Positions 20,353 to 60,136 of a stretch of DNA of 64,000 nucleotides are shown one piece after another. This stretch comes from Aquimarina amphilecti (GTDB lineage: Bacteria; Bacteroidota; Bacteroidia; Flavobacteriales; Flavobacteriaceae), in contig NZ_FOAB01000008.1 in NCBI RefSeq assembly GCF_900109375.1, forward strand, positions 96,520 to 160,519. Direction: 5' to 3'. The notes beneath the pieces are model-generated. The model was not told the DNA's origin. It did not search any database and was given only the letters and a program-made list of their open reading frames with translations. Position 1 is the stretch's first letter. Each line of letters starts with the position of its first letter. A program made the position numbers and the translations under genes.

Positions 20353-20456
20353 TTCTTAAATTTTTCATTTTACGATACTAATTAACAAATGTTTTCGTTC
20401 TAAACTATTATATTACACTGAAAATCGTCCCTTAACACTAATTAAACCTATTGCCT

Positions 20457-22001
20457 ATGATCTCTGATACTTCTTGTAACTTAGCATCGTTAGACCCCTA
20501 TGTACCATCGGCGGAAAATCCTTGGAACGTAAGTAAAATAAATCACTTATACCGTAGAGTCGCTTTCGGAGCTACCAAAACACAGGTTATTGATGCCTTA
20601 AATCAAAACAATCCTTCAGCATTAGTAGATTTCTTAATTGACGAAGCAATTGCTTTAGTTCCAGGTGCCGCCCCAGAATGGGCTTTTTGGAATAGAGATC
20701 AGTTCGAAGCTGCTGAAATGGCTAATGAGGATAACGATATTAATTTTTATCAAGATGAAGGTAAAAGACAAATGATCTATGATTTCCTGCAAAATGGATT
20801 AAGAGATCGTTTAACACTATTTTGGAGCAATCATTTTGTTACAGAAGATCAATCATATAGAAGTCCCGCCTACCAATATCAATATTATAACCTTCTTCAA
20901 TTTCACGCTTTAGGTGATTTCCGACAGTTTGTATATGATATAGGTATTTCTTCCGCTATGCTAGTATATCTAAATGGAGATGAAAATACCAGAGATAGAC
21001 CCAATGAAAACTACGCTCGAGAATTATATGAATTATTTACTTTAGGTGTAGATAATGGATATAATGAAAATGATATTATCGAAACTGCAAAAGCCATTAC
21101 TGGTTGGGTAGAAACTAATGATATCCCTTGGGGTCCTATTACATTTAATCCTGGCCAGTTTAGTAATGACACAAAAGATATTTTTGGTCAAACTGCTAAT
21201 TTTGGGTATTATGGACTTGGTAGTCCTGACGATGTAATTGCACATTTATTTACTCAACGAGAAACATTGGTTGCTAATTATATTTGTGGCAAACTTTATA
21301 CTTATTTCGTAAGTCCAACCTGTAATGAAGGGATTGTAGCCGAAATGGCTCAAACATTCATTACTAATAATTTTCAAATTGCCCCTGTATTAAGACAACT
21401 TTTTAAAAGTGAGCACTTTTTTGATCAAGAGGCCATTGGTGCGATTATCAAAAGTCCCATAGATTTATTTGCTACTCATTTTAAACAATTAAACTTTGAA
21501 TCACCTCCTACACTTGCTTCTTTAAATTCTTTATTAGGAAGAACAACAACAATTGGCCAAGAAGTATTAAATCCAATTGATGTAGAAGGCTGGCAAGGTG
21601 ATGAAGATTGGATAAGCCCTGATTATTTAATTGGTAGATGGGAAGGTGTTCAAAATATTATAAATACTTTTTATGCTCAGAATCAGACACAATTCGGGGA
21701 TTTCTTAAACGGACTTCCTATTGGAACTTTAGCAGATGGGTTTGTTAATAACACATTGCAAGGAGAACAGGTTAACATCGTTGTAAAAGCGATTCTAGAT
21801 TATTTTCTTCCAAGAGGATTAGAAGACCAAACTTTGTTTGATGAAGCATTAGCTATTTTCAAGGAATTCTATCCAGAGAATTATTATGAACCAGATGCAG
21901 TAGCCCCTATTCTTTGGACCTTAGATTTATCAGGAGTTCCTGATCAATTTTATGCGCTACTTAGTCATATTGATGAATTGCCTGAATTCCAACTTAAATA
22001 A
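20457..22001 (+). CDS. DUF1800 family protein (copy 1)
   Basis: A 514-residue protein of the DUF1800 family. Start at the ATG at 20457 (MISDTSCNLASLDPYV), because the copy-2 protein opens the same way (NTSCNVASLN). The frame could also start at the TTG at 20451. Family marks: HLYRRVAFGAT near the N-terminus, LRDRLTLFWSNHFVT, NENYARELYELFTLGVDNGY, AKAITGW, SEHFFDQ and VEGWQGDEDWI. No signal peptide is seen. The DUF1501 gene follows after 7 bp. Family knowledge: DUF1800 and DUF1501 are paired widely, function unknown. Export may depend on its Tat-signal partner (inference). Confidence 0.9.
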   Translation: MISDTSCNLASLDPYVPSAENPWNVSKINHLYRRVAFGATKTQVIDALNQNNPSALVDFLIDEAIALVPGAAPEWAFWNRDQFEAAEMANEDNDINFYQDEGKRQMIYDFLQNGLRDRLTLFWSNHFVTEDQSYRSPAYQYQYYNLLQFHALGDFRQFVYDIGISSAMLVYLNGDENTRDRPNENYARELYELFTLGVDNGYNENDIIETAKAITGWVETNDIPWGPITFNPGQFSNDTKDIFGQTANFGYYGLGSPDDVIAHLFTQRETLVANYICGKLYTYFVSPTCNEGIVAEMAQTFITNNFQIAPVLRQLFKSEHFFDQEAIGAIIKSPIDLFATHFKQLNFESPPTLASLNSLLGRTTTIGQEVLNPIDVEGWQGDEDWISPDYLIGRWEGVQNIINTFYAQNQTQFGDFLNGLPIGTLADGFVNNTLQGEQVNIVVKAILDYFLPRGLEDQTLFDEALAIFKEFYPENYYEPDAVAPILWTLDLSGVPDQFYALLSHIDELPEFQLK

Positions 22002-22008
22002 TAAACCT

Positions 22009-23634
22009 ATGTGTGATACGCATCAGCCCAAAAATATAAAATCAACCTCCAAGGAAGGAGCTTGTAATCCAGACGAACATAAAAAATGGAATCGTAGATC
22101 TTTCTTACAAGCCCTTGGGCTAGTAGGTGGAGGATCTATGATGCTTGCCAATACTAATCTTACAGTTTCTAGACCTTCTCCATTATCAATGGCATTAAGT
22201 CAAGCGGAAACTGACAACATATTAATCATATGCAGATTAGGTGGAGGAAATGATGGTTATAATACCATTATCCCAGTAAACCAATATGATATTTATGCAA
22301 ATGCTCGACCATTAATAAAAATTCCTCCAAGTGAATTTATTAATCTGGAAGAAAACGAATATGCAATGCCTAAACCCATGAATAAATTGGAAAATTTATG
22401 GGGTGATGGACAAATGAAGGTAGCGCATGGAGTTGGTTACGAAGATCAAACATTATCTCATTTTAGAGGAACAGATATTTGGGCAAATACCAATTTAACT
22501 GAAGAAGAACGATCAGGGTTTATGGGTAGATATTTTCAAAGATTACATCCTAGTTATATTACAGATCCACCACCAAGTCCTCCTTCTATCCAAATAGGTA
22601 GTATCGGAAATCTAATTTTTAGAGGTCCGGAAAATGATTTCTCTTTTGCTATTTCAGACCCAAGAAGATTAGAAGCTTATATTGAAAATCAAGGTTATAG
22701 TTTGGACCCTGCTCCTGATTGTACATATGGTGATCGATTAAATTTTATCAGAGAAAGTACTAACGTTACTTATACATATGCCGAGGCAATTTCTGAAGCT
22801 TTTAACAGATCTACAGATTTTGGTGGATATTTAGAAGATGATAGTTTCGCTAGACAAATGCGTATTGTTGCTCGTCTAATAAAAGGGAATCTAGGTACTA
22901 AAGTATATATGGTTACACTTGGTGGGTTTGATACTCATAACAATCAAATACAAAGACACCAGCAGTTACTAAATTCTTTTTCTGAAGGTATCAGTAATTT
23001 TTATGCAGATTTACAAGCCTCTGGATGGGATGATAAGGTATTAACCATGACTATCTCAGAGTTTGGAAGAAGATTGGTTGAGAATGGTTCTTTAGGAACT
23101 GATCACGGCACTGTTGCTCCAATGATGTTTTTTGGGACAGGACTTAACGGAAACGGTTTTATTGGAGAACATCCAGACTTACCGGATAGCCCTACAGTTG
23201 GGTTCAATGCAGAAAGCACTAATGATTTCAGGCAAATCTATTCTACTGTAATGAAAGAATGGTTATGCATAGATCCAAGTACAGTGAGTGATGCATTACT
23301 TGGAGAAGAGTTTGAATCACTAGATTTAGGCTTTACTTGTGGTGGAGTTAGTCCTAATATTCCAGGTGATGGAGAAACACTTTCTCACATTGTAACCTAT
23401 GATGGAGGACAAACTTTTATAAACATAAATAATCCGGAGACCACGCATGTAGATATTACATTGTTTAATATTATTGGACAAAAAGTAGCTACTCTAAGAA
23501 ATGAAATGCTTCTAGAAGGCGAACACGTGATTGATGTAAAAGAATCTTCAGGAACAAGATTAAGTACGGGTCAATATGTATACAGAATTGAAACTGGTGC
23601 AGGTGAGTTTAGTAAATCACTATTGATTTCTTAA
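22009..23634 (+). CDS. DUF1501 family protein with Tat signal and T9SS sorting domain (copy 1)
   Basis: A 541-residue protein counted from the ATG at 22009 (MCDTHQPK), supported by copy 2 (MCDTHYKN). Residues 26-45 form a twin-arginine signal: KKWNRRSFLQALGLVGGG, with RR at 29-30. The sulfatase-like DUF1501 body carries GGNDGYNTIIP, LGGFDTHNNQ, ISEFGRRLVENGS and GTDHGTVAPMM. The last ~80 residues (from GETLSHIVTYDGGQTF) are a type A T9SS C-terminal sorting domain with DITLFNIIGQKVATLRNE and a closing GEFSKSLLIS. It would thus fold in the cytoplasm, cross by Tat and leave by T9SS. The partner DUF1800 gene lies 7 bp upstream. Confidence 0.9.
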   Translation: MCDTHQPKNIKSTSKEGACNPDEHKKWNRRSFLQALGLVGGGSMMLANTNLTVSRPSPLSMALSQAETDNILIICRLGGGNDGYNTIIPVNQYDIYANARPLIKIPPSEFINLEENEYAMPKPMNKLENLWGDGQMKVAHGVGYEDQTLSHFRGTDIWANTNLTEEERSGFMGRYFQRLHPSYITDPPPSPPSIQIGSIGNLIFRGPENDFSFAISDPRRLEAYIENQGYSLDPAPDCTYGDRLNFIRESTNVTYTYAEAISEAFNRSTDFGGYLEDDSFARQMRIVARLIKGNLGTKVYMVTLGGFDTHNNQIQRHQQLLNSFSEGISNFYADLQASGWDDKVLTMTISEFGRRLVENGSLGTDHGTVAPMMFFGTGLNGNGFIGEHPDLPDSPTVGFNAESTNDFRQIYSTVMKEWLCIDPSTVSDALLGEEFESLDLGFTCGGVSPNIPGDGETLSHIVTYDGGQTFININNPETTHVDITLFNIIGQKVATLRNEMLLEGEHVIDVKESSGTRLSTGQYVYRIETGAGEFSKSLLIS

Positions 23635-23662
23635 TATAGTAAAGTTATCACTTAAATATAAT

Positions 23663-23700
23663 AAAACTCCTAAGAGGTTATATAACCTCTTAGGAGTTTT
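23663..23700 (+). terminator. Rho-independent terminator after DUF1501 copy 1
   Basis: A near-perfect palindrome AAAACTCCTAAGAGGTT/AACCTCTTAGGAGTTTT begins 28 bp after the stop and is followed by ATTTTGTT. It separates the two duplicated operons. Confidence 0.85.
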
Positions 23701-23969
23701 ATTTTGTTCTACTATCAACTTTATATACGAAGCACTTAGCGATACAGACAAATACTAGTTAGTTAGAGACGAATACTAAAAGAGCGGGGGCAAATCTGTT
23801 TTAAATATTTAGTTTAAAATCATTTTTGTTGAAAAAAGTAATATTAATAAACAATATCAAAAATTATCATAATAATGACTAAATATTTCTTAACAAGAAA
23901 CTAACTATCAGATAATTACGTTTCGATAAAAATAAATTAACGTAAATTCTTAACTAACTCAATCTATTT
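23701..23969. other. Upstream region of DUF1800/DUF1501 copy 2, with direct repeats
   Basis: Between the terminator and the copy-2 start. It contains two 12-mers differing at one base, AGACAAATACTA (23746-23757) and AGACGAATACTA (23767-23778), 21 bp start to start, and a possible -7 element TACGTTTCG at 23917-23925. No ORF of note. The copy-1 operon lacks the repeats, so the copies may be regulated differently. Confidence 0.5.
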
Positions 23970-25430
23970 ATGCTAACAACAAATACTTCGTGTAATGTTG
24001 CTTCATTAAACATCTATTCCCCAACTAACTCAAATCCCTGGAATAGACAAAAAGTTAATCATTTGTACAGAAGACTTGGTTTTGGTGCTACTCCAGCAAT
24101 GGTAAATAGTGCACTTAATCAAAATCCTTCTGACCTAATTGATAGTCTTATTGATGAAGCTTTGAACCTAAACCCAACACCCGCGCCTGCTTGGGGTTAT
24201 TGGATAAAAGATGACTTTGACGCTAGACCAGAAAACCCTTTTGAATACAGAAGAGATTGGAAAAATCAAATGGTAGCGGATATGTTTCAAAATAATCTTA
24301 GAGATCGTCTTACCCTATTTTGGAGTAATCACTTTGTAACAGAAGATAACACATATCAAAGCCCAGCATATATGTTTCAGTATTACAACTTACTACAACT
24401 CCATTCTTTAGGAAATTTTAAAGATTTCACAAGTGATATGGGGCTCTCTTCCGCTATGCTAATTTATCTAAATGGATATGAGAATACAAAAAACAGACCC
24501 AATGAAAATTACGGAAGAGAATTGTATGAACTCTTTGCACTAGGCGTAGATAATGGATATACCCAAAATGATATTGTTGAAACAGCTAGAGCATTGACTG
24601 GTTGGAACGAAAGAGAAGAGCGTTGGGGTCCAATTACCTTTGATAACAACAAATTTGACAATGATGATAAAACCATTTTTGGTCAAACGGGAAATTGGGA
24701 TTATTATGATGTAATCAGAATCTTATTTGAACAAAGACCTCAACAGATAGCAGAATTTATATGTGGTAAATTCTATCGTTATTTTATTAGTCCTGCTACT
24801 AATGAAAATATTGTTAGTCAACTTGCTCAAACTCTTTTGGACAATAATTTTGAAATGGCTCCAGTATTAAGACAATTATTCAAAAGTGAACACTTTTTTG
24901 ATCAAAAAAGCTTAGGTGTTCATATTAAAAGTCCAGTAGATGTACAAATCAACTTTTTTAAAGATTTAGACTTTGAATTACCTGCAGATTTTGAATTTAA
25001 CAACAAAATACGCGGAGGATGTCAAGAATTAGGACAAGAATTATTAAAACCAGTTGATGTTGCTGGTTGGCAAGGAGATAAAGACTGGATAGACTCCAGC
25101 ACAATCACCACACGATGGGATAGAATTGGTTGGTATGTATGGAGAGCTTGGAGACATAATGAAGAGCAATTCAGAGTAATCGGTAAGGCTATAACTGATG
25201 AAAACTCTAATGATGTTGAGTTAGTATCTCGACAGATTATGGATAATTTTTTATCCAAAGAGCTCATTAGTGCTACAGAATATAGTCAAGGTTTAGAAAT
25301 TTTTAAAGATCAAGTTCCTGAAAATTATTTTGAAGATGGCACTTGGAATCTTGATTGGGAAACCGCTCCCAAACAAGTTTATAGCCTTTTACAATTTCTA
25401 ATAACAATCCCTGAATTCCAACTTAAATAA
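23970..25430 (+). CDS. DUF1800 family protein (copy 2)
   Basis: A 486-residue paralogue of the protein at 20457, shorter by about 28 residues. Shared blocks: VNHLYRRLGFGATP, LRDRLTLFWSNHFVTED, NENYGRELYELFALGVDNGY, ARALTGWN, RQLFKSEHFFDQ, VDVAGWQGDKDWI, and the identical end IPEFQLK/LPEFQLK with the same nucleotide run before the stop. It has an ATG start with no signal peptide. The DUF1501 partner follows at 7 bp, exactly as in copy 1. The gene pair was duplicated as a unit and has diverged substantially. Confidence 0.9.
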   Translation: MLTTNTSCNVASLNIYSPTNSNPWNRQKVNHLYRRLGFGATPAMVNSALNQNPSDLIDSLIDEALNLNPTPAPAWGYWIKDDFDARPENPFEYRRDWKNQMVADMFQNNLRDRLTLFWSNHFVTEDNTYQSPAYMFQYYNLLQLHSLGNFKDFTSDMGLSSAMLIYLNGYENTKNRPNENYGRELYELFALGVDNGYTQNDIVETARALTGWNEREERWGPITFDNNKFDNDDKTIFGQTGNWDYYDVIRILFEQRPQQIAEFICGKFYRYFISPATNENIVSQLAQTLLDNNFEMAPVLRQLFKSEHFFDQKSLGVHIKSPVDVQINFFKDLDFELPADFEFNNKIRGGCQELGQELLKPVDVAGWQGDKDWIDSSTITTRWDRIGWYVWRAWRHNEEQFRVIGKAITDENSNDVELVSRQIMDNFLSKELISATEYSQGLEIFKDQVPENYFEDGTWNLDWETAPKQVYSLLQFLITIPEFQLK

Positions 25431-25437
25431 TAACATC

Positions 25438-27054
25438 ATGTGCGATACTCATTATAAAAATTTCACACCAAAACCTGGTAGCTGCAATAATAAAGAACAT
25501 AAAAAATGGAATCGACGTTCATTTCTACAAGCTTTAGGAATCGTTGGTGGAGGTACAATGGCATTTGCTAATACAGCTCTATCAGTATCAAAACCTTCAC
25601 CCCTATCTGCTGCTTTAAACGAATCAGAAAGTGACAGAGTTCTGGTAATCGTAAGACTTAAAGGTGGAAATGACGGATTGAATACTGTAATCCCAATAAA
25701 TCAATATGATACATATGCCAATGCGCGTCCTAACATAAAAATTCCTGAAAACCAGTTATTTAATCTTAATGACGATTTCGGGATGCCAAATTACGCTAAT
25801 AAATTCGAGAAATTATGGGGAGATGGCCAGATGAAAATAGTTCATGGAGTTGGATATGAACAAAGTGCATTATCTCACTTTACAGGTTCCGATATTTGGG
25901 CGACTTCAGATGTAACTGATCAAGAAAGCACTGGTTGGATGGGAAGATACTTTGAAAAATTATATCCAGATTATTTATTAAGTCCGCCAGAACGTCCTGC
26001 AGCAATACAAATAGGTAGTAGTGGTAACCTTATTTTTAATGGAGACCAAAACAATTTTGCTTTTTCTGTTGCTGATCCTAGAAAACTTTATGAAATAGCT
26101 CAAAATGGATCTCTTTATGACCTAAGCAATCTTCCTGACTGCACCCACGGAGAAAAAGTAGGATACTTAAAAGGAGTAGCAAACACAACATTTACCTATG
26201 CTGGTGTAATTAACGATGCATATGAAAGTACTTCTGATTTCGGAAACTATCCTGACAATAGATTATCACAACAATTAAGTGTTGTTTCTCGCTTAATCAA
26301 AGGAAATTTAGGAACCAAAGTCTATTTTGTAACTCTTGGTGGTTTTGACACACATAATGACCAATTAAATAGACAGGAAGAATTAATGACCCAACTGTCT
26401 GAAACCATGTCATATTTCTATGACGATCTTAAAGATGCAGGATGGGATGACAAAGTAGTTTCTATGACAATCTCAGAGTTCGGAAGAAGAGTTAAAGAGA
26501 ATGGATCTCGTGGAACTGATCACGGTACTGCAGCCCCTATGATGCTTTTTGGAACTGGATTGGATGGAAACGGTTTCATTGGAGATCATCCAGATTTATC
26601 AAATCTGAATAACAATGGAAACCTCTACAATACAAATGATTTTAGACAAGTTTATGCGTCAATTATGAAGCAATGGCTTTGTGTAGATAGTGATATTGTT
26701 GACCAAACTCTTCTAGGTCAACAATACAATTCACTAGATCTTGGTTTTAGTTGTGATACTTTAGGAACAGATGAAGATATTCCTCCTACTTTCGAAAATT
26801 TCAATCATACAGTTACGTACACTGACAACCAATCATTTCTTCATATTACTAATGCCCAAGCTGGGCATGTAAATGTAGATTTATATAGTATGAGTGGTCA
26901 AAAAATAGCGAACTTAAAAAATGAAATGCTATTAGAAGGAGAACATATCATTAATGTAAAAGAAGCAGCTCAAACCACATTATCCGAAGGATTTTATGCC
27001 TATAGAATAACTAAAGGTAAAAAACGATATAGTAAACCTGTTATGATTTTATAA
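25438..27054 (+). CDS. DUF1501 family protein with Tat signal and T9SS sorting domain (copy 2)
   Basis: A 538-residue paralogue of the 22009 protein. Twin-arginine signal KKWNRRSFLQALGIVGGG (RR at 26-27), then the DUF1501 body: GGNDGLNTVIP, LGGFDTHNDQ, ISEFGRRVKENGS and GTDHGTAAPMM. The C-terminal T9SS type A domain starts near NFNHTVTYTDNQSF and includes DLYSMSGQKIANLKNEMLLE. The signal, spacing to DUF1800 and sorting domain are all conserved from copy 1, which argues that all three are functionally needed. Predicted cell-surface or secreted protein. Confidence 0.9.
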   Translation: MCDTHYKNFTPKPGSCNNKEHKKWNRRSFLQALGIVGGGTMAFANTALSVSKPSPLSAALNESESDRVLVIVRLKGGNDGLNTVIPINQYDTYANARPNIKIPENQLFNLNDDFGMPNYANKFEKLWGDGQMKIVHGVGYEQSALSHFTGSDIWATSDVTDQESTGWMGRYFEKLYPDYLLSPPERPAAIQIGSSGNLIFNGDQNNFAFSVADPRKLYEIAQNGSLYDLSNLPDCTHGEKVGYLKGVANTTFTYAGVINDAYESTSDFGNYPDNRLSQQLSVVSRLIKGNLGTKVYFVTLGGFDTHNDQLNRQEELMTQLSETMSYFYDDLKDAGWDDKVVSMTISEFGRRVKENGSRGTDHGTAAPMMLFGTGLDGNGFIGDHPDLSNLNNNGNLYNTNDFRQVYASIMKQWLCVDSDIVDQTLLGQQYNSLDLGFSCDTLGTDEDIPPTFENFNHTVTYTDNQSFLHITNAQAGHVNVDLYSMSGQKIANLKNEMLLEGEHIINVKEAAQTTLSEGFYAYRITKGKKRYSKPVMIL

Positions 27055-42691: not shown

Positions 42692-42699
42692 TACTTTTG
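42692..42699 (+). promoter_or_regulatory. -7 element for TPR-AraC gene
   Basis: TACTTTTG matches TAnnTTTG exactly. It covers the earliest TTG start codon of the ORF (42697), so translation more likely begins at the TTG at 42730. No convincing -33 TTG. Confidence 0.45.
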
Positions 42700-42729: not shown

Positions 42730-44430
42730 TTGATTAAAAAAAACCTATTAATAACTGTTCTTCTAACATCTCTATGGTGCTTCGGGAAATCAACAACAAA
42801 AACATTCACAAATCAGTTAAATGTACCTGATAGTTTACAAAGCAAATCAGCACAGGAAATAATCAAATACATAGAAGCTTCTAATACTGAGCAAAGTATT
42901 ATATTAGAAGCTACTCTATCTAATCTTATTACGGATCTATCAATTTTGGCAGAGTATTACTATGATATTTCGGATACTTTTTATGAAAAAGAAAAAACAG
43001 GTCGTAGTAGGTATTATTTAAAAAAAGCCATCAATAATGCCAAAACTGCAGGAAATGATTCAATTTTAAGCAAATACTTTATCGGATTAGGTCACTCTTA
43101 TCTAAAAGATTGGAAAAATCAAAAATCATTAGACCACTATAACAAAGCATTAGACATTGCCAGCAAATATAAAAACATTCGGCATCAATATTCCGCTCAT
43201 TCTGGAATGGCAATAATCCTAAAGAGAATGAAAAAGCTAGATGATGCATTAGAAGTTTGTAAAGGTATACTAAAGCAAATCGAAAAATCTAAGGATAGAA
43301 ATACAATAAATCATGTGAGATTTCTCACCATTCTAAGTGAAGTATACTTGGATCAAAACAATTATGATTCTGTAATATATTATGCAGATCAAGGCTTAGC
43401 CATTAGTGAACCCTTAGATTATTCGATAGGATCTATTGATTTATATACCAAAAAGGGAATTGTTGCCCTAAATAGAAAAGAACTAGCTAAGGCGCAGCAA
43501 TATTTTCGCAAAGCCGAAGAAATCATTCTTACCAAAAACATCTCACAAAAAAAATCAATATTAAATATCAATTATTTCTTTGCTCATACTTTTATTGAGG
43601 AAAAAAAATACAATCAGGCTATTTCTTCTTTAAACAATAGTATATCTATTATTGAAGAAAAAGATACCAGAAACATTAGAGTTCTTGAAACTTACATTCT
43701 TCTAGCAGAGTGTTACACTAAAATTCAAAACACAAACGAAGCGACATACTGGTATCAAAAATCAAATAAATTACGAGACCAATTTCAAGAAGCAAAACAT
43801 CAAACTATATCAAAGATTAATAATCAAAAAATAAATAAATTAGAAAGTCAAATTGAACAACTTAAAAATGAAGAAATAAAACAAGCATATCACAAAAAAC
43901 TGATATTTTTCATTTTGATCACAGTTTGTTTGATTTTACTATTTTTTGTTTTCAAGTATTTTCAAAAACAAAAAAAGAATAACCAACAATTTAATCAATT
44001 AATAGAAAAGATAAACTCCTTAGAGTCTATAGATGTTGCTAAAAAAAAAGGTTTTGTAATTGATGATAAAAAAGTAAAGGATGTTTTAAATGGTTTAGAG
44101 AAACTAGAACAACAAAAATATTTTCTGCAAAAGGATTGCGATCTGCGATCTATAGCAAAAAAAGTAAAAACCAATACTACATATCTATCAAAGATTATTA
44201 AAACTCATAAAGCGGCTAGTTTCAATGATTACATCAATGAATTACGAATAGATTATGCTTTAAAAAGATTAAAAAATGATAAAAAATTCAGATCCTTTTC
44301 AGTTAAATCCATTGCTTTAGAGATTGGTTATAAAACGGATAATTCCTTTACCAAACATTTTAAATCCAAAACCGGATTGAACCCTTCTTATTATATAAAG
44401 AAAATAGATCATCAGAGGGAAAATTCCTAA
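42730..44430 (+). CDS. TPR-transmembrane-AraC regulator
   Basis: A 566-residue regulator if it starts at the TTG at 42730 (MIKKNLLITVLLTSLWCFGK, a signal peptide). An earlier TTG at 42697 lies inside the promoter -7 box, and no early ATG exists. Residues ~60-370 are helical TPR repeats (FIGLGHSYLKDWKNQKSLDH; YNKALDI; YFRKAEEI), then a coiled coil (KINNQKINKLESQIEQLKNE). One membrane helix follows at ~392-414 (IFFILITVCLILLFFVFKYF), and a C-terminal AraC HTH: DLRSIAKKVKTNTTYLSKII and LALEIGYKTDNSFTKHFKSK. So the TPR sensor is periplasmic and the DNA-binding part cytoplasmic. Two small GG-leader peptide genes follow at 183 and 548 bp downstream. Confidence 0.85.
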   Translation: MIKKNLLITVLLTSLWCFGKSTTKTFTNQLNVPDSLQSKSAQEIIKYIEASNTEQSIILEATLSNLITDLSILAEYYYDISDTFYEKEKTGRSRYYLKKAINNAKTAGNDSILSKYFIGLGHSYLKDWKNQKSLDHYNKALDIASKYKNIRHQYSAHSGMAIILKRMKKLDDALEVCKGILKQIEKSKDRNTINHVRFLTILSEVYLDQNNYDSVIYYADQGLAISEPLDYSIGSIDLYTKKGIVALNRKELAKAQQYFRKAEEIILTKNISQKKSILNINYFFAHTFIEEKKYNQAISSLNNSISIIEEKDTRNIRVLETYILLAECYTKIQNTNEATYWYQKSNKLRDQFQEAKHQTISKINNQKINKLESQIEQLKNEEIKQAYHKKLIFFILITVCLILLFFVFKYFQKQKKNNQQFNQLIEKINSLESIDVAKKKGFVIDDKKVKDVLNGLEKLEQQKYFLQKDCDLRSIAKKVKTNTTYLSKIIKTHKAASFNDYINELRIDYALKRLKNDKKFRSFSVKSIALEIGYKTDNSFTKHFKSKTGLNPSYYIKKIDHQRENS

Positions 44431-44550
44431 GTATTAAAAAAATAACTTCAATTTTTCTCTTTTTCATATACACCATGAAAAGAGCATTAAACTTTACCTT
44501 AATTACTTTAAAATACGGCACGAATCTTATGAATTGATCACGAATAAAAG

Positions 44551-44558
44551 TACCTTGA
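44551..44558 (+). repeat. TACCTTGA octamer, copy 1 (upstream of lanthipeptide-like gene)
   Basis: TACCTTGA 62 bp before the ATG at 44613, in the context TACCTTGATACAAGATTC. The same octamer recurs at 44870 and 45212, each upstream of the next gene. Possible regulator site or atypical -7 element. Confidence 0.35.
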
Positions 44559-44612
44559 TACAAGATTCAAATTGGAATATACTTAAAACAATTAATTTTA
44601 AAAATTAAGATT

Positions 44613-44771
44613 ATGAAAACAAAACAAGAAAACAAGATTTCGTTCAAAAAGCTTACTATTGCTAAAATTAACTTACATTCTATGACAAAAATAAAGGGCG
44701 GTGATTGTGATCCTATAAAACCAGATACTGATTCACATCATACGATGTGCGGATGTGATAATATACTTTAA
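44613..44771 (+). CDS. Class I lanthipeptide-like precursor peptide, 52 aa
   Basis: A 52-residue ORF, ATG at 44613, TAA at 44769-44771. The leader SFKKLTIAKINLHSMTKIKG has the Bacteroidota lanthipeptide/GG-leader form (KKLTxAKINxxxMxxIKGG), with GG at 29-30. The core, from D31, has cysteines at 32, 46 and 48 and Ser/Thr at 39, 41 and 44, the residues needed for thioether rings. Whether rings form is unknown: no LanB, LanC or peptidase-exporter gene is in the window. A strong terminator at 44812-44841 follows. It lies 182 bp behind the TPR-AraC regulator gene. Confidence 0.78.
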   Translation: MKTKQENKISFKKLTIAKINLHSMTKIKGGDCDPIKPDTDSHHTMCGCDNIL

Positions 44772-44811
44772 ATAGATAAAAAATTAATCTTTTTATTTAT
44801 AACTCTTTTTT

Positions 44812-44841
44812 ACATCCGTATTTTTCGAAAAATACGGATGT
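44812..44841 (+). terminator. Strong rho-independent terminator after lanthipeptide-like gene
   Basis: A 15-bp perfect palindrome (ACATCCGTATTTTTC and its complement) followed by TTTGTTTTTTT. Its presence shows that the small peptide upstream is a transcription unit. Confidence 0.88.
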
Positions 44842-44869
44842 TTTGTTTTTTTGAAGATTTATTTCGGTA

Positions 44870-44877
44870 TACCTTGA
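44870..44877 (+). repeat. TACCTTGA octamer, copy 2 (upstream of Cys-rich peptide gene)
   Basis: TACCTTGA in the context TACCTTGAGTACAGAATC, 108 bp before the ATG at 44978. The flank is also similar to copy 1 (TACA, then AGA/GAA, TC). Confidence 0.35.
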
Positions 44878-44977
44878 GTACAGAATCGTATTAGCTAATA
44901 TCTGATTTTAAAGGGGTAAACCGAAAACCCTTAACAGAGTAGGTGACAAATAGTATAACTCAAAAAAATACCAAATT

Positions 44978-45157
44978 ATGTTATCCAAAATTTTAGAACT
45001 AAAAGAAGTTAAGAAACTAAATAAAGCTGCAAAGCAATCTATCAATGGAGGTTATTATTGCAGAACCAATATTCCTTGTCAAACATCACAAGATTGTTGG
45101 GATTTTTCAGGTGATTTTTCCGATAAATGTAACCAAGGGTATTGCCACATATTTTAG
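44978..45157 (+). CDS. GG-leader Cys-rich small peptide, 59 aa
   Basis: A 59-residue ORF, ATG at 44978, TAG at 45155-45157. The leader MLSKILELKEVKKLNKAAKQ then SINGG (21-25) matches the leader of the 15696-15866 peptide position for position at M1, L2, I5, L6, V11, K12, L14, N15, K16, Q20, I22, N23, G24 and G25. The core, from Y26, has cysteines at 28, 34, 40, 51 and 56 (C-x5-C-x5-C-x10-C-x4-C). The pattern resembles small secreted disulfide peptides with a GxC end (NQGYCHIF). Terminator at 45185-45210. Export would need a C39-type transporter encoded elsewhere. Confidence 0.78.
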   Translation: MLSKILELKEVKKLNKAAKQSINGGYYCRTNIPCQTSQDCWDFSGDFSDKCNQGYCHIF

Positions 45158-45184
45158 ACACTAAACTTCACATTGCAATATTAT

Positions 45185-45210
45185 AACCCTGAAAATTTCA
45201 GGGTTTTTTT
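45185..45210 (+). terminator. Terminator after Cys-rich peptide gene
   Basis: AACCCTGAAA/TTTCAGGGTT with a T-run to 45210. It lies inside the open frame upstream of the next gene, which supports its start at 45236 rather than 45173. Confidence 0.82.
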
Positions 45211-56191: not shown

Positions 56192-58387
56192 TTGAAAAGA
56201 AATACCGTATACATATTCATTTTATTTTTTTCCCTTGCTTCTTTCTCACAAGAAAAAAAATCATTTGAAAAAATTGACACCTTAGAAGTTTTATTGAGAA
56301 CTTCAGAAAAACTAAGAGTTGCTAATGACATGTATTCCTCATTAGAATATGCTTTTAAAGCAGTTAACTACGCCCAAAATTTAGAAAATTATCACTATCT
56401 ATCACACGGATATTTATTGATGGGGACCGTTCAGTATGAAATTATTGACTATGAAAATGCTACGAAAAACTTTCTAAAATCTTTAGAATATACGGAAAAA
56501 ACAAAAGACAAAATTCTTTTACCATATATACTCCATAGCTTAGGAAACATATATTATGATGACAATAATGATTATGAAAATGCTTTAAAATACTACAAAA
56601 GAGCTGTAGAACTCGGAAAAGAAAATCCTCATATACAACAATATCAAATACCTCTACATAATCTAATTTGGACATATATGGATCTTGACAGATTCGATGA
56701 GGCATCAACATATCTTAGAGAAGCGGATAGTATTGATAGAACAATCCCAGATAGTGTGCAAATAGATAGAAGCTCTCTTTACCTCCTAAGAGCCAGAAAT
56801 TATGCCCATAATAACAATATTGAAAAAGCTGAGAAGAACTTCGAGAAGTCTTTCGACTATCTAAAAGATGAAACTTACTGGCCAAAAGGAAAAAGTTATT
56901 TCTATCAATATAGATCCGAGATGTATGAAAATATAGGTGATTACACAAAAGCAATTAATGATCTAAAAATGTTAAATGAAAATGATCGTAAAGTTTTTGA
57001 AAATGCAAGAGCCAAAACAGATAAGACCACCAAAATTAGATTTAAAGTAGATCAATATGAACAAAAACTGGCTATAGCAAAAAGAGAAAAGGCTTTATTA
57101 TTAGATATAGATAAAAACAACAAAATGATCATTTCGATTTCTTCTATGGCACTTCTATTATTAGCGGGAGTGGTATTTTTTTACTATAGAGGATATCAAT
57201 CAAAGAAAAAAATATCCGAGATCCTAGAAGTTAAAAATGCCGAACTCTCTGAAGCTAAATCTCAAGCAGAGCAATTAAGTAAAATCAAATCTCAATTCAT
57301 CTCCACAATTAGCCATGAACTGAGAACTCCTCTATATGGAGTAGTAGGTATTTCTTCTATTTTACTGGAAAATGATGCCAAATCACAGAAAGACAAAAAA
57401 CTACTTAATTCACTTAAATTCTCCGCTGATTATTTACTTGATTTAGTAAATAAAGTTCTAAAGGTTAGTAAAATTGATTCAGAAGAAAAGGAACTGATTA
57501 AAACGCCAACAGATCTATTTTCCTTATCTCAAAATATAATTCAATCTTTTGAATATCAATCACATAAAAAAAATAACGTCTTGATTTTAGATCATAATCA
57601 CAGCATCCCTAAATTGCTTTATGTAGATGCTTTGCGGATATCTGAAGTTTTAATCAACTTAATCGGAAATGCTATTAAGTTCACCGAAAAAGGAAAAATT
57701 TGGCTTCGGATTAAACTATTATCAACAAATACCAAAACTGCTCTGATTAGATTCGAAATAGAAGATACTGGCACCGGTATACCTGAAAGTCAAAAAGAAT
57801 TTATATTCGAAGAGTTTTCTCAAGTAGGTAGTGTTTATGATAATAAACAAGGAACTGGTTTAGGACTATCCATTGTTAAAAATCTAGTTCAGGTAATGGG
57901 AAGTCAAATTCATTTTGAAAGTAAAAAAGATATCGGATCTATATTCTATTTTGATTTAGAATTGGACGTTGCAGAGAGCTTAAATGACCTAAGCAGTGAT
58001 ACAGAAAATAAAGAAAATGCAACTAATATCTCCGCAAAAATTCTTGTCGCAGAGGACAATAAAATCAACCAATTAGTTACTAAAAACCTTCTAAAGAATA
58101 TTGGTTGTACCTGCACCATGGTAGAAAATGGAATAGATGCAGTACAAACTTTAAGAAAAGAATCTTTTGATTTAATCCTAATGGACATTAATATGCCAGT
58201 AATGGATGGTGTACAAGCTACATTAGAAATTAGGGTGTTTGACACTACTACTCCTATTATTGCTTTGACTGCTTCTGAACTTAGTGAAGTTTCGGATGAA
58301 TGTAAGAAAGCTGGAATGAATGATCTTATCAATAAGCCACTAAACAAAGAAGATTTAAGGAATTGTATTATTAAACATTATAAATAA
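56192..58387 (+). CDS. Hybrid sensor histidine kinase with periplasmic TPR domain
   Basis: A 731-residue hybrid kinase. TTG start at 56192 followed by a signal peptide (VYIFILFFSLASFSQ). TPR-type helices fill residues ~35-280 (LMGTVQYEIIDYENATKNFL; YYKRAVELGKEN). One membrane helix at ~312-334 (MIISISSMALLLLAGVVFFY), then HisKA with H375 (ISHELRTPLYG), HATPase_c (LIGNAIKFTE; DTGTGIP; GTGLGLSIVK) and a C-terminal receiver with D665 (LILMDINMPVMDG). No DNA-binding domain or HPt: output must pass to another protein. The next gene is a close, shorter paralogue. Confidence 0.92.
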   Translation: MKRNTVYIFILFFSLASFSQEKKSFEKIDTLEVLLRTSEKLRVANDMYSSLEYAFKAVNYAQNLENYHYLSHGYLLMGTVQYEIIDYENATKNFLKSLEYTEKTKDKILLPYILHSLGNIYYDDNNDYENALKYYKRAVELGKENPHIQQYQIPLHNLIWTYMDLDRFDEASTYLREADSIDRTIPDSVQIDRSSLYLLRARNYAHNNNIEKAEKNFEKSFDYLKDETYWPKGKSYFYQYRSEMYENIGDYTKAINDLKMLNENDRKVFENARAKTDKTTKIRFKVDQYEQKLAIAKREKALLLDIDKNNKMIISISSMALLLLAGVVFFYYRGYQSKKKISEILEVKNAELSEAKSQAEQLSKIKSQFISTISHELRTPLYGVVGISSILLENDAKSQKDKKLLNSLKFSADYLLDLVNKVLKVSKIDSEEKELIKTPTDLFSLSQNIIQSFEYQSHKKNNVLILDHNHSIPKLLYVDALRISEVLINLIGNAIKFTEKGKIWLRIKLLSTNTKTALIRFEIEDTGTGIPESQKEFIFEEFSQVGSVYDNKQGTGLGLSIVKNLVQVMGSQIHFESKKDIGSIFYFDLELDVAESLNDLSSDTENKENATNISAKILVAEDNKINQLVTKNLLKNIGCTCTMVENGIDAVQTLRKESFDLILMDINMPVMDGVQATLEIRVFDTTTPIIALTASELSEVSDECKKAGMNDLINKPLNKEDLRNCIIKHYK

Positions 58388-58424
58388 AGTGTTTTTTAGG
58401 CGAAAATTTCCCCTGAAAAACACT
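58388..58424 (+). terminator. Stem-loop between the two hybrid kinases
   Basis: GTGTTTTTTAGG pairs with CCTGAAAAACAC around a 13-nt loop, with one bulged base in the stem, directly after the first kinase stop. It is followed by a mixed C/T run. Confidence 0.55.
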
Positions 58425-58585
58425 TTCTTCCTAAATATTAGCAATAACTTTGTCAAAACTTCTAAATTGATATTTTTACAGTAAAAAAGTTAGGGGTTTA
58501 ACATAGTTAACTGTTTTAATATAAACCCCTTTATATAAGATAAAAATACCCACACAAATTACTCAATACAAAAACTCAACTCCCC

Positions 58586-60136
58586 TTGAAAAAAATTACA
58601 TTATTGTATGCAATTATTGCACTCCCCTGCATATTGTACGCACAATCCAGACAAGAATTTAAAAGCTCTAATGATTTAACCCCTTTAAACAAAGTATCTG
58701 ATAGCTCACAATTACAACAACAAGAAATAGAATTTCTTGATAACATCCAATCTAGTATTCATGAAGTCGAAGAATATAAACGTCAGCTAAAAGTTAGTCA
58801 GCGGGAAAAGGATCTTTTAGTCAGTATTGATAAAAATAACAAAACAATCATATACATAACTATTGTAGGACTTGTATTGGTATTTGGCGTATTATTCTTT
58901 TATTTTAGAGAATATCACGCAAAAAAGAAAACGAGCGATATTCTAAAATTAAAAAACATTGAACTATCTGAAGCAAAAAACCAAGCCGAAACACTAAGTA
59001 AAATAAAATCTCAATTCATTTCTACTATTAGTCATGAACTAAGAACCCCATTATACGGTGTAGCTGGGATATCATCTATGTTATTAGAAAACAAAGAAAG
59101 GTCAGAAAAAGATATTGAATTATTAAATTCTTTGAATTTCTCCGCAGATTACTTACTTAACTTAGTTAATAAGGTCCTAGATGTAAGCAAAATAGATTCA
59201 GAAAAAGTAAATTTAATACACTCTAAAATCAACCTACTTTCTCATCTAAAAAGTATTATACAAACTCTAGCATATCAGGCTTCACAAAAGAATAACGAAC
59301 TTAGATTAGAGTATGATCATAATCTTCCAGAAATTATAAATATTGATGCGGTCAGAGTTTCTGAAGTATTAATTAATTTACTAGGCAATGCCATTAAATT
59401 TACGGAGAATGGAACTATTTGGTTAAGGACAAAGCTTATAGATAAAGAAGAAGGAAACGTAACTATAAGGTTTGAGATACAGGATACCGGTATAGGAATC
59501 CCAGAAGATCAAATTGCTTATATTTTTGATGAATTTGCGCAATTAGGCAGTTTATATGAAAACAAACACGGAACAGGTTTAGGGTTACATATCGTAAAAA
59601 AAATATTAAAACTTATGGATAGTGATATTCATTGTCATAGCGCAAAAGATATTGGTTCTAATTTCTTTTTTACCATTAAGGTAGGTATACAGGAAGCTTC
59701 TTTTTCAGAAGATCACAAGGAAAATATTATAGACTCCCCTTATCCGTTTCCAGCAAAAATATTAATCGCAGAAGATAACAAGATCAATCAGATAGTTACT
59801 AAAAACCTTTTAAAAAATATTCATTGCGAAAGTATCATTGCAGAAAATGGTCAAGAGGCCTTAGAAATGTTACAAAAAGAAACTTTTGATATCGTTCTTA
59901 TGGATATCAATATGCCAGTTCTGGACGGTATGCAAGCAACCCTAAAGATTAGAGAATTTGACACATCTACCCCAATTATCGCCTTAACGGCTTCTGAACT
60001 TAGTGAAGTAGAAAAAGAGTGTATAAAAGCAGGTATGAATGATTTAGTAAATAAACCATTAAATAAAGACGACCTCAAGGATGTTATCTATCGAAATTTA
60101 ATCGTCGACAATGCAGAGGTCAATAATTATCCCTAA
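58586..60136 (+). CDS. Hybrid sensor histidine kinase, short form without TPR
   Basis: A 516-residue paralogue of the upstream kinase, TTG start and signal peptide (LYAIIALPCILYAQS). The TPR region is missing: only ~50 residues separate the signal from a coiled stretch (VEEYKRQLKVSQREKDLLVS) and the membrane helix (~87-110). The rest matches: H150 (ISHELRTPLYGV), HATPase_c (LLGNAIKFTENG; DTGIGIP; GTGLGLHIVK) and a receiver with D440 (VLMDINMPVLDG). No DNA-binding output. It may have lost the sensor or use a different partner. Confidence 0.92.
   Translation: MKKITLLYAIIALPCILYAQSRQEFKSSNDLTPLNKVSDSSQLQQQEIEFLDNIQSSIHEVEEYKRQLKVSQREKDLLVSIDKNNKTIIYITIVGLVLVFGVLFFYFREYHAKKKTSDILKLKNIELSEAKNQAETLSKIKSQFISTISHELRTPLYGVAGISSMLLENKERSEKDIELLNSLNFSADYLLNLVNKVLDVSKIDSEKVNLIHSKINLLSHLKSIIQTLAYQASQKNNELRLEYDHNLPEIINIDAVRVSEVLINLLGNAIKFTENGTIWLRTKLIDKEEGNVTIRFEIQDTGIGIPEDQIAYIFDEFAQLGSLYENKHGTGLGLHIVKKILKLMDSDIHCHSAKDIGSNFFFTIKVGIQEASFSEDHKENIIDSPYPFPAKILIAEDNKINQIVTKNLLKNIHCESIIAENGQEALEMLQKETFDIVLMDINMPVLDGMQATLKIREFDTSTPIIALTASELSEVEKECIKAGMNDLVNKPLNKDDLKDVIYRNLIVDNAEVNNYP

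Follow-up and report, generated by a model that had tools for sequence, protein, structure and literature searches.

Does a membrane-spanning transcription regulator control, and perhaps also sense, the two small peptides encoded directly beside it? The question is raised by a locus of a marine bacterium, in the window (the whole stretch of 64,000 nucleotides that was analysed, C13:96520-160519 of a 5.31 Mb genome in 16 contigs), where the genes for the regulator and for two peptides with leaders ending in GG are flanked by sdhC and an aminotransferase gene. The sdhC neighbour keeps its position in all nine orthologous loci (L058-L066). The arrangement is real and conserved, with a specific promoter code. 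We conclude that the locus is probably a self-contained switch for making, perhaps sensing, exported peptides, because relatives keep the arrangement and both promoters share one control site.

The regulator is encoded on the + strand at 42730..44430 (566 aa from ATG, or 577 aa from an alternative TTG start at 42697). The sequence-only reading of this DNA had claimed a signal peptide, TPR repeats, a coiled coil, one membrane helix and an AraC HTH, and this is borne out by Pfam, hydropathy and an AlphaFold model (mean pLDDT 89.7, alignment of 75 rows). An N-terminal helix (aa 1-21, 42730..42792, +; residues 2-21 in the model, followed by a low-confidence stretch at 23-29) resembles a signal peptide and probably directs export. 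The TPR superhelix of helix pairs that follows (aa 34-331, 42829..43722, +) is predicted to be periplasmic and matches Pfam TPR_12 in three stretches (E 5.6e-21). One continuous helix (aa 335-434, 43732..44031, +) comprises the coiled coil and the single membrane helix present besides the signal peptide, placed by hydropathy at about aa 388-410. The AraC-type DNA-binding domain (aa 447-565, 44068..44424, +) is a separate, presumably cytoplasmic helical domain matching HTH_18 of the AraC/XylS family (E 1.4e-13; 51.3 bits, above the gathering score of 33.6). Structure comparison matches the superhelix equally well to many TPR domains that bind proteins or peptides, and a sequence search of solved structures returned generic TPR proteins, with LGN ranked ahead of Rap and NprR. 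The genome carries ten long members of this regulator family, and the closest named relatives of the regulator, among the matches listed, come from Aquimarina, so that the genome is taken for that of a flavobacterium of this genus.

Two small GG-leader genes follow, as had been claimed, each with its own terminator-like hairpin. Peptide 1 (44613..44771, +; 52 aa) has a lanthipeptide-type leader ending IKGG and a 22-aa core with 3 Cys. The earlier description of it as lanthipeptide-like holds against TIGR04149 (GG precursors; 28.8 bits, above the cut-off of 25) and narrowly misses with NF038153 (class I lanthipeptide leader; 21.4 bits, just under the cut-off of 22). Among ten peptides of paralogous loci, NF038153 gives 26.0 for one, 22.0 for another and lower scores or none for the others. 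Class I precursors of Bacteroidetes are described as having a leader motif LxLxKx5L (PMC7268733), which the peptide 1 leader fits if I and F are allowed for L. Peptide 2 (44978..45157, +; 59 aa), previously described as Cys-rich, has a 25-aa leader ending INGG and a 34-aa core with 5 Cys; its matches in the profile libraries are weak. The hairpins lie 3' of peptide 1 (44812..44841, +; fold z -3.58) and 3' of peptide 2 (45185..45205, +). A third terminator-like hairpin is listed that overlaps 45185-45205.

Chance small ORFs are ruled out as an explanation of the peptides by codon-position changes, conservation and a density control. Changes are commonest at third codon positions in every peptide pair compared. 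In the density control (64 de-duplicated named loci), the first kb downstream of the regulator has 1.18 same-strand small ORFs with a GG leader per kb and the second has 0.23, compared with 0.29 in the upstream kb and 0-0.1 per kb farther away. All nine orthologous loci encode a relative of peptide 1 and then a second GG peptide. The latter is of the window's kind in seven, and solely of another kind in L059 and L062; these two thus differ from L060, L061 and the window, and L064 has both kinds, so peptide 2 has been exchanged among loci.

The pairing of regulator and peptide extends well beyond these loci. A check of adjacency across relatives, set beforehand, found it conserved: in a tree of 128 regulators, the window's regulator falls in a clade of 56 (from Aquimarina, Kordia, Dokdonia and other Flavobacteriaceae), and a GG-leader peptide lies no more than 700 nt away from 54 of them, versus 0/20 in a separate group. 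The clade has support of 100/100 in a careful 59-row tree, where 27/28 of its rows are GG-adjacent and the GG-less rows are split over more than one group. On the larger tree the pairing label requires 16 changes versus 38.8 in shuffles, and pairing was lost or gained several times; L100 keeps the regulator with no adjoining peptide. Within the genus, a close relative of the regulator is found in 24/52 genomes, and the peptide adjoins it in 28/28 loci compared (the best 28 of 60 matches outside the window's own genome). The peptide is present at 51 of the best 76 named loci, drawn from 515 regulator relatives. Outside the genus pairing is rarer, at 7/27 family loci (28 of 30 loci examined, L163 and L169 being dropped for want of a single regulator ORF; eight have the peptide, one of them in the window's own genome). 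Order-wide, the leader is detected at E<=0.001 in 17/296 genomes, and in 7 of the 16 other leader-bearing genomes the leader has a regulator match (E<=1e-55) no more than 1.5 kb away, on either strand; five of these seven belong to another family of the order. Judged from its spread over the clade, the pairing of the membrane AraC regulator with GG-leader peptides is old.

Within the genome itself, a GG-leader gene lies within 700 nt of seven of the ten family members, and for an eighth (C4:554599) two such genes are found about 2.4-2.7 kb further on. Among 27 other AraC-type loci, drawn from the 79 HTH_18 matches in the genome, none has a GG-leader gene within 700 nt. GG-leader peptides without an adjoining regulator are also present, and only three of the seven matches to TIGR04149 (E<=1, used as a genome probe) fall in regulator-peptide loci. 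Because the GG-leader rule is strict, GA-type leaders escape it, and leader counts beyond the regulator family are incomplete.

How the two genes could be controlled is suggested by their upstream regions. From upstream alignments, repeat scores and a genome pattern search, we identified a candidate 22-bp inverted-repeat operator for peptide 1, CCTTAATTACTTTAAAATACGG (44497..44518), and one for peptide 2, CCGTATTTTTCGAAAAATACGG (44816..44837), the latter nested in the peptide 1 terminator. Each is followed after 32 nt, a fixed spacing, by a -7-type box, TACCTTGA (44551..44558, + for peptide 1; 44870..44877, + for peptide 2). In other subclades as in the window's group, the repeat stands ahead of each of the two peptides, its sequence drifting from subclade to subclade. 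Repeat scores are far above shuffles and also above control intergenic stretches (a score of at least 7 at 45/55 and 26/52 sites ahead of peptides versus 11/115 controls). The two repeats of a locus are more alike than repeats from different loci (14.3 versus 13.5 of 18 positions, 0/5000 permutations, n=35; 14.2 versus 13.1 with 25 distinct pairs). Genome-wide, and tolerating one mismatch, CCNTAWTTTN4AAAWTANGG is matched at four sites, at both window peptides, at peptide 2 of the C5 paralogue and just downstream of a GG-less C13 paralogue; the reversed pattern has one.

Among repeats scoring at least 6 (49/55 for peptide 1 and 40/52 for peptide 2), TANNTT stands exactly 32 nt downstream in 47/49 peptide 1 and 35/40 peptide 2 promoters, compared with 0.59 and 0.42 per offset at other offsets; the 32-nt rule was noticed in the data before counting. 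A composite of repeat, 32 nt and TAnnTT, whose filter and spacing were set after viewing the clade, occurs 146 times in the 1533 kb compared; 110 of these occurrences lie no more than 2 kb downstream from a regulator (0.493 per kb there versus 0.0127 per kb). It is present in 55/56 clade loci (L100 included, despite its lack of an adjoining peptide), in 14/52 others and in 1/20 of the GG-less group. The exception in the clade, L112, lacks it because its repeat begins CA, outside the filter. Most of 12 GG-less loci inspected show other inverted repeats downstream, and repeat control may therefore be family-wide with a different layout. Of all regulator positions, residues 549 and 552 (577-aa numbering; 68 loci, ancestry uncorrected) are the most informative about the outer bases of the operator, and they sit in the second AraC recognition helix; the next-best columns, 541 and 537, belong to the helix preceding it. 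The regulator very probably controls both peptide genes, because the composite is found in 55 of 56 clade loci and the outer bases covary with the recognition helix. The likely start is preceded by the repeat at about 66 to 45 bp, a position that would suit an activator. This shared 22-bp operator and 32-nt promoter code at both peptides, shown by comparison, is new here.

Peptide 2 carries a further candidate control element, a DUF805b cis-regulatory RNA (RF02914; 44911..44945, +; 46.6 bits, gathering score 35.6) in its 5' leader, between promoter and start. By pattern, DUF805b occurs between regulator and peptide 1 in 0/55 clade loci and after peptide 1 in 52/55; the covariance model is positive in 8/8 loci scanned. 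The genome has ten strong copies, seven of them above the gathering score. Of the ten, five stand ahead of GG- or GA-leader peptides and four ahead of genes whose protein products have an N-terminus like that of a signal peptide or lipoprotein; the last is without a clear gene. We found no mention of DUF805b in the literature searched, where two papers do contain the term DUF805; within the limits of that search, its link to GG-leader genes is new. The locus gives a concrete gene context for this uncharacterised RNA.

The second half of the question, whether the regulator senses its peptides, was approached through covariation. Cys and Ser/Thr are present in 54/54 peptide 1 cores examined. Over 45 loci, with kinship ignored, distances among peptide 1 cores correlate with those of the TPR region at r up to 0.79 (85-residue windows), versus 0.51 with the membrane/linker region, which is about as divergent. 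Peptide 2 cores, in the same loci and again with kinship ignored, correlate weakly everywhere (0.36-0.50), slightly higher in the TPR region (0.49 with that region as a whole). The peptide 1 leader tracks the TPR region less well than the core does (0.63, partial 0.36; 45 loci, kinship ignored). The partial correlation of TPR region and peptide 1 core given the HTH is 0.56 (0/2000 permutations as high), and that of HTH and core given the TPR region is -0.04 (both 54 loci, kinship ignored). Correlation is higher for the helices that putatively line the TPR groove (0.72) than for those on the outside (0.62; kinship ignored in both). The 45-locus set is drawn from the 56 clade loci (L047, L096, L099, L102, L104, L105 and L116 left out for a non-GG second peptide or a split regulator, and four more for lacking two strict peptides); the 54-locus set leaves out L096 and L100. 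Segments with a suitable evolutionary rate can correlate through shared ancestry alone. The earlier proposal that the TPR domain senses the peptides gains indirect support from the covariation of peptide 1, and far less from that of peptide 2. Sensing of peptide 1 is the leading explanation on these comparisons, and we consider it an evenly balanced matter whether peptide 1 is the ligand.

A credible account, to which we give distinctly less weight, is that the regulator controls both peptides but senses another cue, for example envelope damage or competitors' molecules, with the peptides acting as bacteriocin-like effectors and the TPR covariation reflecting lineage. Peptide 2 cores at loci with LanB/LanC resemble modified effectors, TPR folds are generic, and a related group of 20 regulators is GG-less, with downstream inverted repeats at most of the 12 examined; the ancestral signal may therefore have been something else. 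This account fits less well with the retention of peptide 1 beside the regulator where peptide 2 is swapped, and with peptide 1 tracking the TPR domain more closely than it tracks segments of about the same divergence.

In keeping with the earlier claim that no modification enzyme or exporter lies nearby, none of the window's ORFs of at least 100 aa is a relative of the genome's own LanB, LanC or C39-ABC proteins. The conclusion previously drawn, that missing enzymes point to signals rather than modified antibiotics, is weak, since relatives and a paralogue carry LanB/LanC beside similar peptides. The genome's one LanC match and a LanB (PF04738, E 4.1e-142) adjoin the C5 paralogue; the peptide 1 leaders of this paralogue and of the window share 66% identity. 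Among clade loci with enough sequence, LanB is found in 7/25 and LanC in 10/25, and a LanB-like end lies within 1.5 kb upstream of seven family members from other genera. Five C39 matches were identified in the genome, two of them in frames of 749 and 753 aa; the 749-aa frame, beside the regulator at C5:595110, is a confirmed C39-ABC exporter and has an HlyD partner. Both modification and export could thus take place in trans, and the idea that orphan peptides cannot be modified is ruled out by the LanB/LanC genes found elsewhere in this genome and next to relatives. Aquimarina and Kordia are described as rich in RiPPs (PMC10734526). The interpretation given in the sequence-only reading is partly supported overall.

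That TPR-peptide binding serves self-protection or export control, as a periplasmic check coupling production to successful export, is improbable. Inspection by eye revealed no dedicated immunity gene among window ORFs of at least 150 aa and no exporter relative lies in the window, as this account would expect, but direct coupling to an AraC output and the conserved operators would make a purely protective role unlikely. Least probable by far is that the neighbouring regulator is inactive on the peptide genes and the inverted repeats belong to some other factor or act only as terminators: the peptide 2 upstream repeat does double as a terminator-like hairpin in the window, but the peptide 1 repeat is absent from the terminator list, the covarying outer bases argue for recognition by the regulator, and a mere terminator is ruled out for the peptide 2 repeat by its fixed spacing to the -7 box and by the separate hairpin and T-run ahead of it in other subclades.

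We return to peptide 1 sensing and propose, as an even prospect, that the locus is the regulatory cassette of a lanthipeptide-type exported-peptide locus with autoinduction by peptide 1. The membrane-spanning AraC regulator would bind the 22-bp inverted repeat at both peptide genes and, judged from the operator 32 nt upstream of the -7 box, activate both. A C39-type ABC exporter, its gene lying elsewhere, would cut peptides 1 and 2 at GG and export them. Mature peptide 1, possibly modified by LanB/LanC, would then be sensed by the periplasmic TPR superhelix, leading to autoinduction. Peptide 2, considering the covariation and its exchange between loci, may be a variable product with extra RNA control in its 5' leader. 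Type-1-exported peptides leave the cell, so re-entry into the periplasm is an assumption of the sensing model. More broadly, and tentatively, such proteins could form a Gram-negative class of one-component pheromone receptors, in which the periplasmic TPR domain binds a mature lanthipeptide-like peptide and passes the signal through a single membrane helix directly to the AraC domain, which fires its own peptide genes from the fixed promoter of inverted repeat, 32 nt and TAnnTT, with several orthogonal copies per genome possible; if so, each copy would have its own operator and its own peptide 1.

Among known systems, the locus resembles Bacteroidota class I lanthipeptide loci in its LxLxKx5L-type leader ending GG and in the LanB/LanC genes adjoining it in relatives, and differs in that the window lacks a LanB/LanC relative; the main text of the paper on those loci makes no mention of AraC (PMC7268733). 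In Bacteroidales RiPP clusters, TPR-domain genes near GG precursors have been suggested to regulate after pheromone binding (PMC10352776), and the idea of TPR sensing is therefore partly in print, although the part of that account available to us includes no membrane-AraC architecture, operator or conserved pairing. In the literature searched (titles and abstract openings), no peptide signalling circuit of such architecture is described for Bacteroidota. The putative receptor, operator and candidate ligand are all sequence-defined and occur in many diverged copies, so that receptor-ligand and regulator-operator specificity is directly testable in the regulator family, and the locus offers a handle to switch on silent lanthipeptide loci.

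Like the RRNPP sensors of Gram-positives and phages (Rap, NprR, AimR), the regulator has the TPR superhelix fold of a peptide-binding domain and an adjacent, putatively cognate peptide gene, within 700 nt in 54/56 cases. RRNPP proteins are cytoplasmic, without membrane helix or signal peptide, and read re-imported peptides; those that are transcription factors have an N-terminal HTH of another type than AraC. In contrast, our regulator has a signal-peptide-like N-terminus, a membrane helix and a C-terminal AraC HTH_18. Autoinduced lantibiotic loci (NisRK type) and GG-pheromone kinases (BlpH, ComD type) use a histidine kinase and a response regulator. They share with this locus an exported GG-leader or lanthipeptide product beside the regulator, own promoters and shared operators, whereas here a single protein spans from sensor to DNA. 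The one-component membrane regulators ToxR and CadC and the hybrid two-component AraC systems of Bacteroides likewise join a periplasmic sensor through a membrane helix to a cytoplasmic DNA-binding domain, as is predicted for our regulator, which is set apart from them by its TPR sensor, its AraC output without phosphorelay and its dedicated peptide targets.

The operator pattern that precedes both window peptides was also identified, by whole-genome pattern search, at C13:168638-168659 (locus L212), 3' of the paralogous regulator at C13:167192. The ORF behind it encodes 131 aa and is not a GG-leader peptide, and the 126-aa product from an internal ATG had no match in a Pfam scan. A neighbour of 133-144 aa is present in several members of the group of related regulators that lack a GG-leader peptide (among the best 76 of 515 relatives).

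The DUF805b RNA element, found in the 5' leader of window peptide 2, is found in four other cases a short distance ahead of a gene whose product begins with a signal- or lipoprotein-like N-terminus, at C9:192602 (L194), C3:12318 (L197), C13:187048 (L198) and C4:142573 (L201). These N-termini suggest that the role of the element is linked generally to exported products.

At loci C5:595110 and C8:300852, a prolyl oligopeptidase gene (Pfam Peptidase_S9; L053 16864-19008 and L052 2657-4807, respectively) is located immediately 3' of the GG-leader gene, and may be involved in processing or destruction of the peptide. The regulator gene is split into two ORFs at two loci of Aquimarina, uncultured members included (L076 and L096), with the peptides still present. 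Another genus of Flavobacteriaceae encodes a tandem array with 18 leader matches (L229, G486:C1:2257060-2260358), many of these GG-leader precursors being near-identical to one another.

By eye, long related ORFs at window 20451-27054 form two tandem pairs (516/560 aa and 486/538 aa), and look like a duplication. Two adjoining, similar ORFs at window 56192-60136, the first with TPR-like repeats, resemble hybrid histidine kinases, again judged only by eye.
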